In this document: in pieces, positions 21,885-31,498 of the stretch
Numbering within the stretch: position 1 is the stretch's first letter
Layout: each line of letters starts with the position of its first letter
Source: Lysobacteraceae bacterium
Lineage (GTDB): Bacteria; Pseudomonadota; Gammaproteobacteria; Nitrococcales; AK92
Assembly: GCA_012523465.1 (NCBI GenBank)
Contig: JAAYIK010000011.1
Location: 1-64,000 of the forward strand
Length of the DNA stretch: 64,000 bases
Reading direction: 5' to 3'
Notes under the pieces: model-generated
What the model was told of the DNA's origin: nothing
The model's input: the letters and a program-made list of their open reading frames with translations, nothing else
Database searches by the model: none
Made by a program: the position numbers and the translations under genes

Positions 21885-23336
21885 ATGAACGATACCAAGA
21901 TCCTCACCACCGTCGCCGGCGCTCCGGTGGGCGACAACCAGAACTCGATGACGGCCGGTCGGCGCGGCCCGGTCCTGCTGCAGGACGTCTGGCTGCTCGA
22001 GAAGCTGGCCCACTTCGATCGCGAGCGCATCCCGGAGCGGGTGGTGCATGCCAAGGGCTCGGGCGCCTACGGGGTGTTCCGGCCGACCCGCGACATCTCG
22101 CGCTACACCAAGGCCAAGGTATTCGCCCCCGGCACAGAGACGCCGGTGTTCGTGCGCTTCTCCACCGTGGCCGGCGAACGCGGCGCAGCCGACGCCGAAC
22201 GCGACGTGCGCGGATTCGCGGTGAAGTTCTATACCGAGGAAGGCAACTGGGATCTAGTGGGCAACAACACACCGGTCTTTTTCATTCGCGACCCGCTGAA
22301 GTTCCCCGACTTCATCCACACCCAGAAGCGGGATCCGCGCACCAACATGCGCGACAACGCCGCGGCCTGGGATTTCTGGTCGCAGAGCCCGGAATCGCTG
22401 CACCAGGTGACCATCCTCATGAGCGACCGTGGCCTGCCGCGCAACTACCGACAGATGCACGGCTACGGCTCGCACACCTTCTCGTTCATCAATGCCGAGG
22501 GCGAGCGCTTCTGGGTGAAGTTTCACTTTAAGTCCAACCAGGGCATCGCCTTCTATACCGACGCGGAGGCGGCCGAGGTGATCGGGCGCGACCGCGAGAG
22601 CTCGCAGCGCGACCTCTACGAAAGCATCGAGGCCGGCAACTTCCCGAGCTGGCGGCTGTGCGTGCAGATCATGCCGGAGGCCGACGCCAGGACCTACCGG
22701 ATCAACCCGTTCGACGTGACCAAGGTCTGGCCGCACGCCGACTATCCGCTGATCGAGATCGGCGTCCTCGAGCTTAACCGCAATCCTGACAACTACTTCG
22801 CCGAAGTCGAACAGGCCGCCTTCACGCCCGCCAACATCGTGCCCGGCATCGGCTTCTCGCCCGACCGCATGCTGCAGGGCCGGCTGTTTTCCTACGGCGA
22901 TACCCAGCGCTACCGGCTGGGCGTCAACCATCACCTGATACCGGTGAACGCGCCGCGCAGCCCGACCTACAACCCCTATCACCGGGACGGCGCCATGCGG
23001 GTGGACGGCAACGGCGGCGGCGGCCCCAACTACCAGCCCAACCGCTTCGGCCGCTACGCCGAGAACCCCGCCGTGCTGGAGCCACGGCTTGAAGCCGGCG
23101 CCTTCGTGGATCATTACGACCACCGCGAGGACGACGACTACTACAGCCAGCCCGGCGCGCTGTTCCGGCTGTTCAGCGACGCTCAGAAGCGGCGGCTGTT
23201 CGGCAACATCGCTCGCAGCATGGCCGGCATCCCGCGCGAGATCATCGAGCTGCAGCTGGAGCACTTCCGCAAGGCCGACCCGGCCTATGCCGAGGGCGTC
23301 CTCGCGGCGCTGCGGGAAATCGGGGCATACCGCTAA
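21885..23336 (+). CDS. katA: Small-subunit (clade 3 type) haem catalase
   Basis: Dismutates hydrogen peroxide in the cytosol. The 483-residue length is that of small-subunit catalases. Distal His lies in [11 protein letters not shown] (about residue 54), the active-site Asn in [15 protein letters not shown], and the proximal haem-ligand Tyr in [14 protein letters not shown] near residue 335. No signal peptide. AAGAAGGAACG precedes the ATG. An inverted repeat CTATC-N14-GATAG at 21780-21803 lies about 80 bases upstream and could bind a regulator such as OxyR, although it does not match the full OxyR pattern. Followed 52 bases later by an ankyrin-repeat gene. Confidence 0.93.
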
Positions 23337-23388: not shown

Positions 23389-23907
23389 ATGCCGAACACC
23401 CCCCTTGTCATCGACGAAGAGCTCCTTGCCCTGGCCCAGCAGGTCTTTGACCTGGCGCGAAACGGCGATGCCGAAACCCTCGCCACGCTGCTGGCGCATG
23501 GGCTCCCTGCCAACATGTGCAACGACCGCGGCGATAGCCTACAGATGCTGGCCGCCTACCACGGCCATGCAGAAACCTGCCGCCTGCTGCTCGTACACGG
23601 CGCCGACCCCGAGTTGCGCAACGATCGCGGCCAGACGCCGCTGGCCGGCGCCGCCTTCAAGGGCGATGTGGACGTCGTGCGGGTGCTGCTGGCGCACGGC
23701 GCCGAGGTCGACGGCCGCTGCAGCGACGGTCGCACGCCGCTGATGTACGCCGCCATGTTCGACCGCACCGATATCGTCGCGCTGCTGCTAGAGCATGGCG
23801 CCCGGGCCGAGCTCAGCGACCGGATGGGCATCGACGCGCTGAGCCTGGCGCGTGCCATGGGCGCCACCAAAGCGGTGCAGCAGCTCGACGCTCCCCGCCG
23901 GCACTGA
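23389..23907 (+). CDS. Ankyrin-repeat protein, probable catalase partner
   Basis: 172 residues made almost wholly of four ankyrin repeats (DRGDSLQMLAAYHGHAETCRLLLVHGAD, then NDRGQTPLAGAAFKGD, SDGRTPLMYAAMFDRT and MGIDALSLARAMG). No signal peptide, so cytosolic. GGAG precedes ATG 23389. Ankyrin proteins encoded beside catalase genes are known: AnkB supports KatB in Pseudomonas aeruginosa and Cj1386 aids haem loading of KatA in Campylobacter. By position this one probably has a similar chaperone or haem-delivery role, which is inference. Confidence 0.85.
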   Translation: MPNTPLVIDEELLALAQQVFDLARNGDAETLATLLAHGLPANMCNDRGDSLQMLAAYHGHAETCRLLLVHGADPELRNDRGQTPLAGAAFKGDVDVVRVLLAHGAEVDGRCSDGRTPLMYAAMFDRTDIVALLLEHGARAELSDRMGIDALSLARAMGATKAVQQLDAPRRH

Positions 23908-24033
23908 GCCGGCGTTCCTCGCCGCACGGTTGCTCTCGCAAAACGGGGGACGCATGTATGAAGCAGTCCTTTAACGCCCCGCCCTGCCTGGCTCCGCAGA
24001 CAGGGCAGGCACGCCACGATCCAAGGAGTGGAC

Positions 24034-26877
24034 ATGGACAGCTTCGGCGCTCGCTCAGTCCTCCGTGTGGAGGACCGTGACTACGAAATCTTCCGTCTGC
24101 AGGCGCTCGAGAAGGAGGGAGTCGAGCTCGCCCGCCTGCCCTACTCCCTGCGCATCCTGCTGGAAAACCTGCTGCGCCACGAAGACGATGTGGCCGTGCG
24201 CGCGGACGACATCCTCGCCCTTGCCAACTGGGATCCCAAGGCAGAGCCGAGCCGAGAAATCTCCTTCATGCCGGCTCGCGTGCTGCTGCAGGATTTCACC
24301 GGCGTCCCGGCCATCGTCGACCTGGCCGCCATGCGCGACGCCATGGCAGCGCTGGGCGGCGATCCCCGCAAGATCAATCCCCAGCAACCGGTGGAGCTGG
24401 TCATCGACCACTCGGTCCAGGTCGACGCCTTCGCCTCCGAGCAAGCGTTCGACATCAACGAGCGTCTCGATTACCAGCGCAACGGCGAGCGCTACGCCTT
24501 CATCAAATGGGGCGCGCAGGCCTTCGACAACTTCGTCGCCACACCGCCCAACGCCGGCATCTGCCACCAAGTCAATCTGGAGTATCTGGCCCGGGTGGTC
24601 TTCGGCGACGGTCACGACAAAAGGGGCACGAGCGGCCTGGTGCAGGCCTACCCCGATACCCTGGTCGGCACCGACTCCCACACCCCCATGATCAACGGCC
24701 TGGGCGTACTGGGCTGGGGCGTGGGCGGCATCGAGGCCGAGGCGGCCATGCTGGGACAGCCGATCTCCATGCTGATCCCGCGCGTCATCGGCTTCCGTCT
24801 CACCGGCAAGCTGCCGGAGGGTGCCACCGCCACCGACCTGGTGCTAACCATCACCGAGATGCTGCGCAAGAAGGGCGTGGTCGGGCACTTCGTCGAGTTC
24901 TACGGCCCCGGGGTCAGCAACCTGGCGCTGGCGGACCGCGCCACCATCGGCAACATGTCGCCGGAGTACGGCGCCACCTGCTCCATCTTCCCGGTCGACC
25001 AGGTCACGCTGGACTACCTGCGCCTGACCGGACGCCCGGAGGCACGGATAAAGCTGGTCGAGGCCTATATGAAGGAGCAGGGGCTGTTCCATACTGCCGA
25101 CGCCCCCGAGCCGGAGTACAGCGACACGCTGGAGCTCGATCTCGGCACCGTGGAGCCAAGCATCGCCGGCCCGCGGCGGCCGCAGGACCGTATCCCCCTG
25201 TCACAGGCGCGCCAGGCATTTCAGCAGGCGCTGCCCAGCCTGCTGCCGCCCTCCGCGCCGGCCGCCGCCACGGCCACGGCCGCCTGCCGGATCGGCACGG
25301 AAGTCCACCAGCTCGGCCACGGTGCCATTGCGCTGGCCGCCATCACCAGCTGCACCAACACCTCCAACCCCTCGGTGATGCTGGCCGCCGGCCTGCTGGC
25401 TAAGAAGGCGGTGGAAAAGGGACTGAGCCGCAAACCCTGGGTGAAGACCTCGCTCGCGCCCGGCTCGCGGGTGGTGACCGACTACTACGAGAAAGCCGGT
25501 CTCACCCCTTTTCTGCAGAAACTCGGATTTCATACCGTGGGCTACGGCTGTACCACCTGCATCGGCAACTCCGGCCCGCTGCCGGCGGAAATGTCGGAAG
25601 CCATCGAGCGGCACGGCCTGGTGGCCGCCGCCGTGCTCTCCGGCAACCGCAACTTCGAAGGCCGCATCAACCCGCTGGTGCGAGCCAATTATCTGATGTC
25701 GCCGCCGTTGGTGGTCGCCTTCGCCCTGGCGGGACGCATCGACATCGACCTGCGCAACGAACCCCTCGGCAGCGACAGTGAAGGCAAACCGGTCTATCTC
25801 AGGGACATCTGGCCTAGCCAAGAGGAAATCCAACAAGCTACCCAGCAGGCGGTGGGTGCGGAGATGTTCGCCAACACCTACCGCGACATCTTCAAGGGCG
25901 ACGCCCGCTGGCAGCAGCTGCAAGCACCCGCCGACGAGCGCTTCCACTGGGATCCGCGCTCGACCTACATCCGCCGTCCCACTTTCTTCGACGGCATGAG
26001 CAAGAAAGCGCCGACCACGGTCGCGGACATCGAAGGCGCGCGCTGCCTCGCCAAGCTCGGCGACAGCATCACCACCGACCACATCTCCCCCGCCGGCACC
26101 ATCAAGGCCGACTCGCCGGCCGGCAAGTACCTGATCGAGCACGGTGTCGCACCCCAGGACTTCAACTCCTACGGCTCCCGCCGCGGCAACCACGAGGTGA
26201 TGGTGCGCGGCACCTTCGCCAATGTGCGCATCCGCAATCAGCTCGTGCCGGAGATCGAAGGCGGTTTCACCAGGCACATGCCGAGCGGCGAGGTACTGTC
26301 GATTTATGACGCCGCCATGCGCTACCGCGAGGAGGGCACGCCGCTGTACGTGCTGACCGGCAAGGAGTACGGCTCTGGCTCCTCCCGCGATTGGGCGGCC
26401 AAGGGGCCGTATCTGCAGGGCATCCGCTTCGTCATCGCCGAGAGCTACGAGCGCATCCACCGCTCCAACCTGATCGGCATGGGCATACTGCCGCTGCAGT
26501 TCAAGGCCGGCGAGAACGCCGACGCTCTGGGACTGGATGGCACCGAAATCCTGGCTGTCACCGGGCTCGCGGAGCGGATCAAAAACCGGCTGCAGGACGG
26601 CCGCACGGTGACGGTGCGGGCCGAGCGCGAGGATGGCAGCGCCAGAGAGTTCGAGGCCGTGATCCGCCTCGACACCCCCCAGGAGATCCTCTACTACCTC
26701 AACGGCGGCATCCTGCACTACGTGATTCGACACCTGCTGGGCGGCAGGCAGCCGGCCATCCCCGCAGGAGCGGCAACTGCAGCCCCGCCGCCCACCCGCG
26801 ACGCGCGCCCCGATGACAAGGCAGTCGAGGAAGGCTCCAGGGAATCCTTCCCGGCCAGCGACCCGCCAGCCTACTGA
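24034..26877 (+). CDS. acnA: Aconitate hydratase A
   Basis: A cytosolic [4Fe-4S] enzyme isomerising citrate and isocitrate, of the AcnA/IRP type. 947 residues, about 50 longer than typical AcnA because of a C-terminal tail. Cluster cysteines are in [11 protein letters not shown] and [37 protein letters not shown] and [13 protein letters not shown] are also diagnostic. AAGGAG at 24023-24028 fits the ATG at 24034 rather than the GTG at 24028. The last ~40 residues form a Pro/Ala-rich linker followed by an acidic [16 protein letters not shown] tail that is not part of the enzyme fold. Confidence 0.95.
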
Positions 26878-26918: not shown

Positions 26919-27323
26919 ATGCCGTACGCCGTCCTGCTGCACTCGGCCTTCATCGCCGTCTGGGTGGGCGGCCTGCTGCTTCTGGGCAGCCTGTGCGCCG
27001 AGATCGCCCGTAAACGCCAGTCCGACGATCTGAAGCTGCGCCTCGCACTAGGCCTGTTCGCCTGGGCCGCGACGCTGGGCGCGGTGCTGGCCGTGCTGTC
27101 TGGCACCTGGCTAGCCTACGCCCGCGGCTTCACCGGCGGTTGGCTGCAAGTCAAGCTGTTCTTCGTGGTGCTGCTCACCTGGCTGCATGTCTACGCGGGC
27201 CGGCTGCTGGCCCAGCTGCGCGACGGCGTCATCCGCTCGCCCTGGCATTATCTCGCCGCCGCCGGCGGCCCTCTCCTGGTCTCGCTGCCCATCCTCTACC
27301 TGGTGCTTGGGAAGCCGTTCTAA
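26919..27323 (+). CDS. CopD/HemJ-like small membrane protein
   Basis: 134 residues with four hydrophobic segments. The first begins LLHSAFIAVWVGGLLLLGSL, carrying a His in the first helix as in CopD and HemJ families; the third contains WLQVKLFFVVLLTWLHVYAGRLL, resembling the KL...H...R segment of HemJ. It could be a haem-related oxidoreductase or a copper-resistance-type membrane protein. It lies between aconitase and the oxidase operon, close to a haem-copper oxidase. Family level is fairly likely; function is inference. Confidence 0.6.
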   Translation: MPYAVLLHSAFIAVWVGGLLLLGSLCAEIARKRQSDDLKLRLALGLFAWAATLGAVLAVLSGTWLAYARGFTGGWLQVKLFFVVLLTWLHVYAGRLLAQLRDGVIRSPWHYLAAAGGPLLVSLPILYLVLGKPF

Positions 27324-27331
27324 GCCGCTGG

Positions 27332-27829
27332 TCAGCCGACCTTGCCGCGCGCTTCCGGGGCGGCACGCTCCGGCTGGCCAGGCCCCAGATTGTGCTCGAA
27401 CACCATCTTGCCGCCCAGCCAGCCGGCCATACCCAGCATGATCACCGTCAGCGCCGACAATGCCAGCCCCCAGGGCAAGACGGCGATCTGGTGGTCGCCC
27501 AAGCGCTGCAGCAGGTTCACTGCCCCCAGCGCCATGGTGACGATGGCGGCGAGAAAATGGTTCCAGCTGCTTAGGTATCTGCGGATATCCCGCACCAGGC
27601 TGAAATCCGCCGCCCCCACCAGCGCCGCCAGCCCGCCCATGGCCACGCCAGCGGCCAGCAGCCAGAACGACATCCGGGCCCAGAAGGGATCGGCCAACCA
27701 GCAGAACGCCAGATCAGTCAGCGGCACGGCGCTGAAGAAGGCAATCGGAAAGGTCACCAGCATGGGATGGATGGGATGGCCGAACAGGGTCATCACGCTC
27801 TCGGCGCCGCCGCCGGGAAGATTGCGCAT
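27332..27829 (-). CDS. DUF2231 family membrane protein
   Basis: 165 residues. The opening FGHPIHPMLVTFPIAFF is the DUF2231 signature, with conserved His residues at the start of the first of four membrane helices. The C-terminal tail is hydrophilic. GGAG lies six bases upstream of ATG 27829. It is divergent from the coxB-like gene and converges on the CopD/HemJ-like gene. DUF2231 proteins often neighbour cytochrome or metal-related genes; the activity is unknown. Confidence 0.82.
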   Translation of the reverse strand: MRNLPGGGAESVMTLFGHPIHPMLVTFPIAFFSAVPLTDLAFCWLADPFWARMSFWLLAAGVAMGGLAALVGAADFSLVRDIRRYLSSWNHFLAAIVTMALGAVNLLQRLGDHQIAVLPWGLALSALTVIMLGMAGWLGGKMVFEHNLGPGQPERAAPEARGKVG

Positions 27830-27931
27830 GGCGCACTCCTTCGCTCTTGACTCCGCCGAACTGCCACTCCATGTCCAATGGGAGCCGCTTGCCTCCAGCG
27901 CAAGCCAGCCCGTCGCGCCGGCCGGAAGGAC

Positions 27932-28684
27932 ATGCTTGCGTTGCAATTACCCTGCCGTCATCCCAGCTGCCTGCCGTGCGGGGGCGTGCTTGCGCTCGCC
28001 GCCAGCGCCGGCTGCGCGCAGCCGCAATCCATGCTGGCCCCTGCCGGCCCCCGCGCCACCGTCATTGCCGAGACCTGGTGGCTGATGTTCTGGGGCAGCC
28101 TGCTCATTCAGGTGCTGGTGGTCGGGCTGGCGGTCTACGTGCTCTGGTGGCGCCGTCGGCGCGCCCAGGCTCGCGACCGTCTGTTCGTCCTGGGCGGCGG
28201 CCTGCTGCTGCCGCTGGTGGTGCTCAGCGCCCTGCTGCTCGACGGCTTTCGGGTCGGCGCGCTGCTGTCGGCCCCGGCGCCGACCCGACTCGAGATCGAG
28301 GTGGTGGGCCGCCAGTTCTGGTGGGAGATTCGCTATCCCGGCGAGCCGCCGGTGGCCGGCGTCGGCTTGCTGCGGATTCCAGCGGGCGAGCCGGTCGCGC
28401 TCGCCCTGCGTACGGAGGACGTCATCCACAGCTTCTGGGTGCCGCGGCTGGCCGGCAAGCTGGACCTGATCCCTGGCCGGGTCAACACCACCTGGCTGCA
28501 GGCCGACCGGCCCGGCGTCTACCGCGGCCAATGCGCCGAATTCTGCGGCACTGGCCATGCCCACATGGCGCTGACGGTCATCGCCGAACCCAGGGCGGAC
28601 TTCGAGGCCTGGCTGGCGCACCAGCGGCGGCTGGCCGCGGGAGCTGAGAGTGCCGACCCGAGTCCGCGCGAGGAGCAGCAATGA
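27932..28684 (+). CDS. coxB: Cytochrome c oxidase subunit II, lipoprotein form
   Basis: Accepts electrons from cytochrome c at the CuA site and passes them to subunit I. 250 residues. A lipobox (LAASAGC, Cys28) indicates a lipid-anchored N-terminus, then two membrane helices. The periplasmic cupredoxin domain has VGRQFWWEIRYP, the CuA His in VIHSFWVP, and GQCAEFCGTGHAHM, carrying both Cys, the Glu, the second His and the Met. The ATG at 27932 has GGAAGGA upstream. It overlaps the subunit I gene by 4 bases. Resembles the CoxM branch of alternative oxidases. Confidence 0.9.
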   Translation: MLALQLPCRHPSCLPCGGVLALAASAGCAQPQSMLAPAGPRATVIAETWWLMFWGSLLIQVLVVGLAVYVLWWRRRRAQARDRLFVLGGGLLLPLVVLSALLLDGFRVGALLSAPAPTRLEIEVVGRQFWWEIRYPGEPPVAGVGLLRIPAGEPVALALRTEDVIHSFWVPRLAGKLDLIPGRVNTTWLQADRPGVYRGQCAEFCGTGHAHMALTVIAEPRADFEAWLAHQRRLAAGAESADPSPREEQQ

Positions 28685-31134
28685 CCGCCGAGCAGCTGCA
28701 CGCCCGGCTGCACGCGATCTGGCGCAACCGCCCGGGACTGGGGGCACTCAGCGCCGTCAACCACACGACGGTCGGCCTGCGCTTCATCGTCACCGGACTG
28801 GTGTTTTTCGTCGTCGGCGGACTCCTGGCGATGGCCATCCGCACCCAGCTGGCCTACCCCGGCAACGACTTCGTCGGCCCCTCCGTCTACAACCAGCTCT
28901 TCACCCTGCACGGCACCACCATGATGTTTCTGTTCGCGGTGCCAACGCTGGAAGGGGTGGCGATGTATCTTGTTCCCAAGCTGCTCGGTACCCGCGACAT
29001 GGTGTTTCCGCGCCTGTCCGCCTATGGCTACTGGTGCTACCTGCTGGGCGGCCTGATCCTGTACTCGAGCCTGCTGTTCAACGCCGTGCCGGACGGCGGC
29101 TGGTTCATGTACCCGCCGCTCACTGGCCCGGTATTCACGCCCGGCAAGGGGCCTGACTTCTGGCTGCTGGGCATCACGCTGGCGGAAGTCTCCGCCGTCT
29201 CCGCCGCCGTGGAGCTGGTGGTCTCCATCCTCAAGACCCGGGCGCCGGGCATGGCGCTGCACCGCATGCCCATCTTCGCCTGGGCCATGCTGGTGGTGGC
29301 CTTCATGATCCTGTTCGGCTTCCCGCCGCTGATCCTGGCCAGCCTGTTACTGGAGCTAGAGCGCGCCTTCGGCTGGGCCTTCTTCGATGCCGCCCGCGGC
29401 GGCGACCCGCTACTCTGGCAGCACCTGTTCTGGCTGTTCGGCCACCCCGAGGTGTACATCATCTTCCTGCCCGCGGCTGGCCTGCTGTCGACCATGATTC
29501 CGGTGCTCGCAGGCCGACCGCTGGCAAGCTACACGGCGATCGTGGTGGCGCTGGTAGCGGTGGGCTTTCTTAGCTTCGGGCTGTGGGTGCACCACATGTA
29601 CACGGTGGGCATCCCGCAGCTCGCACTGGCCTTCTTCTCCGCCGCCAGCATGGCGGTGGCCATCCCGACGGGACTGCAGGTGTTCACTTGGATCGCCACG
29701 CTGTGGCCGGCCCGGCCACGGCTCACGGTGCCGGCGCTGTACGTGTTCGGCTTCTTCTTCGTGTTCACGCTGGGCGGCCTCACCGGGGTGATGGTGGCGC
29801 TGGCACCGTTCGACTGGCAGGTCCACGACACCCACTTCGTGGTCGCCCACCTGCACTACGTACTGATCGGCGGCATGGTCTTCCCGCTGTTCGGCGCGCT
29901 GCACTACTGGCTGCCGCACGCCAGCGGCCGACTGCCCTCGGACTGGCTGGGCAAGGCCGCCTTCTGGCTGATGTTCGTCGGCTTCAACCTGACCTTTCTG
30001 GTCATGCACCTGACCGGCATGCTGGGCATGCCGCGGCGGGTCTACACCTACCAGGCCGGTTTGGGCTGGGAATGGCCCAATCTCATCTCGTCGTTGGGCA
30101 GCTTTCTGCTCGCCATCGGCACAGCCGCGTTCTTCACCGACATCCTGCTACACTTCCGCTACGGTCGCCGGGCGCCGCCAAACCCCTGGCAGGCGGACAG
30201 CCTGGAATGGGCCATGCCGACGCCGCCACCGGTCTACAATTTCGCCGCAATACCGGAGGTGCGCTCACGCAATCCGCTGTGGGATCAGCCGCAGCTGGCG
30301 GAAGCCATACGGCAAGGCCGAGGCTACCTGGCCCACCCGCGGGCGACACGTCGGGAGATCCTCGGTACCTCGCTGGTGGACGCGGAACCGGAGCAGGTCA
30401 TCGTGGTGCCGGGCAACAGCTGGCTACCCTTGCTCTACGCCCTGGTCACGGCCGCCGTGTTCGTCGGCCTGCTGGCGCAGCGTTACTGGCTGTCGGCTGC
30501 CGCTGCCATGGGCGTGCTGGCGCTGGGGCTGCACTGGGCCTGGAGCAGCCAGCGGCTGCCAGCGGCGATGCAAGCAGCACCGGGCCTGGAGCTGCCGCTG
30601 CACCCAAGGCATCCACAGCGCCCCGGCTGGTGGGGGCTGCTGGCGACGCTGGCAGCCGATGTCACCATCGCCGTCTCCCTCCTGTTCGGCTACTTCTTCT
30701 ACTGGACGGTGGCGCCGCAGTGGCCGCCGCCGCGACCTTGGCTCGGCGACCTCCCGCTCGGTCTGAGCGGGCTTGCGCTACTGGCGGCAAGCGCGGTTCT
30801 GATCCGGCTCGGGGAAACCCGCGGCGGCACTCGCAGCACGCTGCTGGCGGCCTTGCTTGCCCTGCTGGCCTCGACCGCCATCCTGGGGATCGTGCTGGCC
30901 GGGGACGAACTGGCGCCGACCCGCCATGCCTATGACGCCATCGTCACCGCCTGCGCCGCCTGGCAGGGCCTGCATCTGACGGTCTGCCTGAGCGTCGGCC
31001 TGATCCTGCTACTGCGCCCGACCGGCCCGGAGCGGCGCAGCGAGTGGCAGATCGCCGCCCTGCTCTGGCATTACACCACCTTGCAGGGCGTGCTCATGGG
31101 GGGTGCGCTCCTGCTGTTTCCGCGGCTGCTGTGA
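28681..31134 (+). CDS. ctaD: Cytochrome c oxidase subunit I-III fusion (CoxN-like)
   Basis: An 817-residue fusion. Residues 1 to ~540 are subunit I with 12 helices: haem a ligands His77 and His392, haem a3 ligand His390, CuB ligands His255, His304 and His305, and crosslinked Tyr259. Residues from ~580 are subunit III-like (WWGLLATLAADVTIAV near 643, IAALLWHYTTLQGVL near 792). Proton-path residues: the D-channel Asp106 and Glu257 are present, but the two Asn of the NN pair after Asp (R. sphaeroides Asn139/140) are Ser-Ala, and the K-channel Lys (position 333, in IPTGLQVFTW) is Gln. Part of coxB-ctaD-small membrane gene operon; resembles Bradyrhizobium coxMNOP. Confidence 0.9.
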   Translation: MTAEQLHARLHAIWRNRPGLGALSAVNHTTVGLRFIVTGLVFFVVGGLLAMAIRTQLAYPGNDFVGPSVYNQLFTLHGTTMMFLFAVPTLEGVAMYLVPKLLGTRDMVFPRLSAYGYWCYLLGGLILYSSLLFNAVPDGGWFMYPPLTGPVFTPGKGPDFWLLGITLAEVSAVSAAVELVVSILKTRAPGMALHRMPIFAWAMLVVAFMILFGFPPLILASLLLELERAFGWAFFDAARGGDPLLWQHLFWLFGHPEVYIIFLPAAGLLSTMIPVLAGRPLASYTAIVVALVAVGFLSFGLWVHHMYTVGIPQLALAFFSAASMAVAIPTGLQVFTWIATLWPARPRLTVPALYVFGFFFVFTLGGLTGVMVALAPFDWQVHDTHFVVAHLHYVLIGGMVFPLFGALHYWLPHASGRLPSDWLGKAAFWLMFVGFNLTFLVMHLTGMLGMPRRVYTYQAGLGWEWPNLISSLGSFLLAIGTAAFFTDILLHFRYGRRAPPNPWQADSLEWAMPTPPPVYNFAAIPEVRSRNPLWDQPQLAEAIRQGRGYLAHPRATRREILGTSLVDAEPEQVIVVPGNSWLPLLYALVTAAVFVGLLAQRYWLSAAAAMGVLALGLHWAWSSQRLPAAMQAAPGLELPLHPRHPQRPGWWGLLATLAADVTIAVSLLFGYFFYWTVAPQWPPPRPWLGDLPLGLSGLALLAASAVLIRLGETRGGTRSTLLAALLALLASTAILGIVLAGDELAPTRHAYDAIVTACAAWQGLHLTVCLSVGLILLLRPTGPERRSEWQIAALLWHYTTLQGVLMGGALLLFPRLL

Positions 31135-31144
31135 GGGAGCGATC

Positions 31145-31498
31145 ATGGCAGCGACGACACCGAATCCATCCCCTACGCTCATCGTCGCCGCCCCCCTGCT
31201 ATGGGCCGTCCATTTCGTGCTCTGCTACGGCCTGCTGTCGATCGGCTGCGCCGCCGGCTGGCAAGCAGCCAGCTTCCTCGGGCTGGATACGATTCGCGCG
31301 CTCCTGCTGGCGCTGACGACGCTGGCGGCGGCCATTCTGCTGGTGCTACTGGCGCACGCCTGGCGTGCCCACCGTGGTCGCAGCGGCGGCTCGCAACAGC
31401 GGTTCATGGCCGTCGTCAGCGCAGGGCTGGCCGTGCTGTCCCTTACCGCCGTGGTTTGGCTCGGGCTGGCCGTGATCGCGATACCGCCCTGTCAGTAA
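31145..31498 (+). CDS. Small membrane protein of the oxidase operon
   Basis: 117 residues with three hydrophobic helices (about 13-33, 43-70 and 88-112) and a short tail IPPCQ. It follows the subunit I-III gene by ten bases with GAGGGAGCG before the ATG, so it is in the same operon. I do not recognise the family. Position suggests a small accessory or assembly subunit, comparable to the extra genes of coxMNOP-type clusters. Confidence 0.7.
   Translation: MAATTPNPSPTLIVAAPLLWAVHFVLCYGLLSIGCAAGWQAASFLGLDTIRALLLALTTLAAAILLVLLAHAWRAHRGRSGGSQQRFMAVVSAGLAVLSLTAVVWLGLAVIAIPPCQ

Follow-up and report, generated by a model that had tools for sequence, protein, structure and literature searches.

The oxidase locus and its setting

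In the window, by which we mean the whole 64,000-nucleotide stretch of Lysobacteraceae bacterium DNA analyzed here, a cytochrome c oxidase operon lies beside genes for membrane proteins. The neighbor counts given below refer to a set of 84 related loci; contig edges cut off many of these.

26919..27323, + strand, CopD/UPF0093-like membrane protein, upstream neighbor (44 of 84 loci)
27332..27946, − strand, DUF2231 membrane protein, divergent neighbor of coxM (57 of 84 loci)
27878..28684, + strand, subunit II (CoxM/CoxB), with a CuA motif and a lipobox-like ASAGC but without CXXCH; CoxB match 164 bits above cutoff
28681..31134, + strand, cytochrome c oxidase subunit I+III fusion (COX1-3/CtaD type), 817 amino acids; matched by NCBIfam CtaD_CoxA and Pfam COX1
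31103..31498, + strand, small membrane protein 3' of subunit I+III (near 55 of 84 loci)

The real start of subunit II is probably the in-frame ATG at 27932. Profile searches of the 31103-31498 product against NCBIfam and Pfam gave no family match; it sits in the subunit IV slot and is a probable subunit IV-like protein.

The fusion scores 697 bits above the curated CtaD_CoxA cutoff and has the hallmarks of an A-family heme-copper oxygen reductase, namely the COX1 profile match, the six His ligands of heme and CuB (H77, H255, H304, H305, H390, and H392), and the helix VI Tyr in HPEVY. A sequence-only reading of this DNA had listed the heme and CuB ligands, the cross-link Tyr (Tyr259), Asp106, and Glu257 as present, and we found all of them in the protein, within a retained set that also takes in the CuA motif, the propionate Arg pair, and all residues of the heme a, heme a3, CuB, and Mg sites. 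An AlphaFold2 model (pLDDT 86.4, pTM 0.91) has as its best full-length PDB match 2yev, the Thermus thermophilus caa3 subunit, which is likewise a I+III fusion (TM 0.85/0.88; 30% identity) and which we take to be a canonical A-family oxidase with the K-channel Lys. The metal-ligand His residues are His in all Gln-type sequences (defined below) that cover those positions, and Tyr259 is Tyr in 146 of 146; with ligands invariant and codons varying synonymously, the protein is under selection. A sequencing error or pseudogene is ruled out by the open frame, the identical residue in independent genomes, and the use of both Gln codons. Motifs rule out a NOR, which would lack the cross-link Tyr, and also an A2 enzyme, in which Tyr replaces Glu278, whereas Glu257 is kept here (PMC3084760).

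With its I+III fusion and separate subunit II, the window enzyme very probably belongs to the COX operon type a (COX1-3) group, the same Proteobacteria fusion of ∼840 residues that is described in the relevant parts of the 2014 study of Degli Esposti (PMC4013037) and of the 2019 alphaproteobacterial survey (PMC6431628); the published example is from Rhodopseudomonas palustris BisA53 (841 amino acids). In the same accounts this operon type often goes with a Caa3_CtaG assembly protein, and type a-II is its non-fused relative. The order CopD-like gene, DUF2231 gene on the opposite strand, coxB, ctaD fusion, and small membrane protein gene recurs in Roseomonas and Alteromonas plasmids, where a gene annotated as a cytochrome c oxidase assembly protein adjoins the operon; the window genome has a single Caa3_CtaG gene, away from the operon (C27).

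The window genome has four COX1-family genes, including one canonical A1 enzyme; judging from size and score, the remaining two are probably C-family and NOR-like. Because a canonical A1 enzyme is also listed in 14 of the 15 same-class genomes that have the Gln type, the Gln-type enzyme looks like an accessory oxidase. Upstream of the operon lie a catalase gene (21885-23336), a gene for an ankyrin-repeat protein (23488-23907), and an aconitase A gene (24028-26877). A catalase partnership is ruled out, with catalase near only two of the 84 related oxidase loci.

Glutamine at the K-channel lysine position

The sequence-only reading had proposed that the K-channel Lys is replaced by Gln, and it named two ways in which this could fail: a misaligned position, with a Lys one turn away filling the role, or a branch that normally carries Lys. 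Neither holds.

29677..29679, + strand, Gln333 (codon CAG) at the K-channel Lys position (K362 in Rhodobacter sphaeroides, K354 in Paracoccus denitrificans, K319 in the bovine enzyme)

The window motif PTGLQVF aligns with PTGIKFF of solved A-type oxidases, with no gaps around the site against the PDB chains, which rules out misalignment. A displaced Lys is likewise excluded by sequence: membrane helices VI, VIII, and IX are free of Lys and Arg in 147 members, the sole exception being position 313 in a P-side loop, occupied in 11 of them. In a starting sample of 80 loci from GTDB species genomes plus 15 same-class genomes (the window's own included), Gln is present in 95 of 95 I+III proteins, and Lys in 16 of 16 canonical A1 enzymes, including that of the window genome. 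With a wider sample (phylum-wide loci, one alphaproteobacterial family, and plasmids), Gln is uniform in 147/147 clade members and Lys in 19/19 canonical A1/bo3 enzymes. The clade comprises 130 fusions and 17 shorter members, a few of them fragments, the shorter ones mostly being rhizobial coxB-ctaD enzymes whose COX3 is separate. In a maximum-likelihood tree of 80 sequences, all Gln sequences fall on one side of a single branch (support 100/98). Gln333 is thus, on the sequences compared, a trait of a whole bacterial lineage and not a quirk of one gene. The relatives use both codons (CAG in 137, CAA in 9) at a mean pairwise identity of ∼61% (minimum, 43%), with no more than 88 invariant columns among 501, so the Gln is kept by selection.

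Other parts of the K-channel are unevenly retained. Thr351, Ser291, and Tyr280 of the published K-channel fingerprint (PMC3084760, P. denitrificans numbering) correspond to Thr330, Ser270, and Tyr259, and only Lys354 is unmatched. Across the Gln clade, Ser270 is retained in 120 sequences and is Ala in 24, the Thr330 position is Thr or Ser in 141 of 147, and the S365 position is mostly Ala, Val, Cys, or Leu. The entry Glu of the channel, which lies in subunit II (E101 of R. sphaeroides), is a hydrophobic residue in the window; it is present in 17 of 17 Lys-type enzymes and in none of the 128 scorable Gln-type ones.

A rebuilt D-channel

The sequence-only reading had also noted Ser-Ala in place of the Asn pair after the D-channel Asp. 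This is correct and is no side detail: the first Asn is a gate residue at which Ser is reported to decouple pumping with normal turnover (PMC12901375), so one would not expect turnover to be lost. Related changes that it had missed are those of N121 to Met95 and N207 to Glu178, together with the loss of the subunit II Glu.

28951..28953, + strand, Glu91, an acid new to helix II, one turn away from the N121 position; Glu in 135/144
28963..28965, + strand, Met95 at the asparagine-gate position N121 (bovine N80)
28996..28998, + strand, Asp106, D-channel entry (D132); Asp or Glu in 132, Asn in 11, and Ala in 1 of 144 Gln-type sequences
29017..29022, + strand, Ser113-Ala114 at N139-N140 (bovine N98-N99)
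29185..29187, + strand, Glu169 in place of an invariant Gly (G198); Glu in 144/144 of the Gln clade
29212..29214, + strand, Glu178 in place of the D-channel Asn N207 (bovine N163); Glu in 141/144
29449..29451, + strand, Glu257 (E286), retained

The gate changes extend through the Gln clade: the N121 position is Ile, Val, Met, Leu, or Ala in nearly all members versus Asn in 19/19 canonical enzymes, the N139 site is Ser, Thr, or Gly, and the N140 site is Ala. Among the A1 D-channel features (PMC3084760, P. denitrificans numbering), Asp124 and Glu278 are matched by Asp106 and Glu257, and the other six are replaced (Asn113, Asn131, Asn199, Tyr35, Ser134, and Ser193 by Met95, Ser113, Glu178, Phe35, Gly116, and Ala172). 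With two of eight D-channel and three of four K-channel features, the window sequence is, as judged from these residues, of the A family but not of fingerprint A1; COX operon type a is classed as A1 in the part of PMC6431628 that treats it, whereas most of the A1 fingerprint is missing here.

In the fusions the D-channel retains both its entry acid, Asp or Glu, and its terminal Glu. In a non-fused sub-branch the D132 position is Asn in 11 sequences and Ala in one, and among these twelve Glu178 is kept in ten and Glu169 in all; the deeper acids therefore outlast the entry acid. Non-fused enzymes of the coxMNOP (CoxN) or type a-II kind, represented here by Bradyrhizobium sp. 195 and Mesorhizobium japonicum pMLb, share the Gln, Glu169, and Glu178, and their relatives fall in the same clade; they differ in that subunit III is not fused and in having Asn or His in place of the D-channel Asp (His in pMLb). 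On a helical wheel, Glu178 lies on the channel face with S200, and Glu169 some 160 degrees away. Since this places Glu169 off the D-channel face, it may serve something else, and although it is the most strictly conserved of the new residues it is the weakest link of the mechanism that we propose below. Further acids are fixed in the fusions: Glu225 (29353-29355), at the end of helix V, is Glu in 95/95 versus Leu or Ile in canonical enzymes, and Asp487 and Asp159 are likewise fixed.

Proton supply and relation to other oxidases

The sequence-only reading had supposed that the enzyme either loads protons differently or has an unusual function. The direction of this is supported, but the trait belongs to a lineage, and the Lys-to-Gln change is one part of a rebuild of two channels. 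In canonical enzymes, K319M blocks the O-to-E step and D-pathway mutants block E-to-R, the D-path taking all other substrate protons and the pumped protons; N98D, N98T, and N98S retain O2 reduction and lose pumping (PMC12901375). The window residue at the bovine N98 site is Ser, the same change as in N98S. The R. sphaeroides N207D variant has also been reported as decoupled. Another such D-pathway mutant, from P. denitrificans, is represented by PDB entry 3ehb, whose title calls it decoupled. Decoupled laboratory mutants of the D-channel (bovine N98S/T/D and 3ehb) have a natural counterpart here in the Ser at the N98 site, with the difference that the mutants carry single changes and still have the K-channel Lys.

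The reading that we favor, with slightly more doubt than confidence, is that these residues describe a catalytic A-type cytochrome c oxidase that has abandoned the canonical K-channel, takes in nearly all of its protons by a D-type path rich in acids, and has probably weakened or lost pumping. Substrate protons, among them the one or two that in canonical enzymes enter by way of the Lys during the reductive phase, would reach the active site by a carboxylate-rich path of Asp106, Glu178, and Glu257, perhaps joined by Glu91 and Glu169. Without its Asn gate such a path would conduct but would fail to separate pumped from chemical protons, and O2 would be reduced with lowered or zero pumping. The enzyme would still be electrogenic, because chemical protons and electrons arrive from opposite sides, and, alongside the canonical aa3 and the remaining heme-copper oxidases of its genome, it could play an accessory, weakly coupled role.

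A rather unlikely alternative is that the K-path works without its Lys, waters at Gln333, Thr330, Ser270, and Tyr259 carrying protons as in the B and C families, with roughly normal pumping. The retention of Ser270, Thr330, and Tyr259 in the window makes such a path possible; in the clade Tyr259 and the Gln are invariant and the other two positions mostly conserved, and the Lys position is Thr and Gly in the B and C families (PMC12901375, Table 2). Against it stand the absence of the subunit II entry Glu from every scorable sequence, Ala, Val, Cys, or Leu at the S365 site in most members, Ala for Ser270 in 24 sequences, and gate changes that equal the published decoupling ones (PMC12901375). 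The likeness to ba3 and cbb3 goes further, to a hydrophobic residue at the ba3 N121 position and Phe at the Y33 position (PMC12901375), yet these families dropped the D-channel and use a K-analogue, and the window enzyme is the opposite, with Asp106 and Glu257 kept and the K-path entry lost.

We consider it improbable that the enzyme turns over little O2 and instead serves as a peroxidase, as a sensor of redox state or O2, or as a scavenger of NO. The O-to-E block caused by loss of the K-channel Lys in canonical enzymes (PMC12901375) points this way, as does the inactivation of Cupriavidus necator coxMNOPQ without a fitness effect (PMC11540253), although that operon may lie outside the Gln clade. 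The catalase gene nearby in the window would also fit, but catalase adjoins just two of the 84 related loci, a NOR would have no Tyr, and all of the heme, CuB, Mg-site, and CuA residues are retained, as are the propionate Arg pair and the cross-link Tyr. Quite improbable is a new proton route on Glu169, with Glu91, that replaces the K-channel and preserves two inputs and pumping. Glu169 is invariant alongside Gln333 (144/144), survives the loss of Asp106 and, in two members, of Glu178, and lies off the D-channel face, as a separate route would have it; nonetheless, the origin is single. The same limit applies to the favored reading: every channel change maps to a single branch of the tree, with no repeated origin by which their association might be judged.

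If the favored reading holds, the A family may include a large clade of natural oxidases that reduce O2 without any K-channel, drawing every substrate proton through one ungated, carboxylate-rich path, a generalization that we offer tentatively. To the known proton-input architectures, D plus K (A family) and K only (B and C), it would add a third, possibly a naturally decoupled oxidase, with one sub-branch lacking even the D-channel entry Asp. The need for two proton inputs and the role of the Asn gate as the enforcer of pumping have been argued from laboratory mutants; a clade with a fixed Gln, a mostly Ser/Thr/Gly gate, Glu for N207, and a broad range in Proteobacteria offers natural enzymes in which to test both questions, and an active enzyme of this kind would amount to nature's own test of proton feeding and pumping in oxidases. 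CtaD naming, and the one H+ pumped per electron assumed in metabolic models, may mislead for these proteins.

The operon type is already known, and the channel rebuild is without prior description in the literature that we searched. That search, which was not exhaustive, turned up no account, for the Gln clade, of the Gln at the Lys position, the Glu residues, or the channels; the descriptions of COX operon type a seen in PMC4013037 and PMC6431628 do not mention the Gln or Glu residues. In the text of Degli Esposti 2021 available to us (PMC8239418), repeated K-channel loss is inferred for archaeal A-family oxidases under one hypothesis, and the bacterial Gln-clade group is not treated.

Other departures from the canonical channels were seen as well. 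The sister clade of the Gln clade (L139-L143, L154, and L155), with named relatives in Paraburkholderia, Caballeronia, Burkholderia, and Mesorhizobium, has Trp for the D-channel Glu (HPWVY) and Ala or Thr for the K-channel Lys, retains Asp132 and the Asn gate, and has two conserved acids, Glu49 of helix I and Asp271 following helix VI. Within the Lys clade, a canonical-looking A1 subunit I (L147) has separately lost the Lys, with Ile at that position and Val for Thr359 (PVGLIIF). The two Gln-type operons lacking the D-channel Asp in M. japonicum pMLb (L179) and Bradyrhizobium sp. 195 p195_2 (L180) are on plasmids typed as conjugative.
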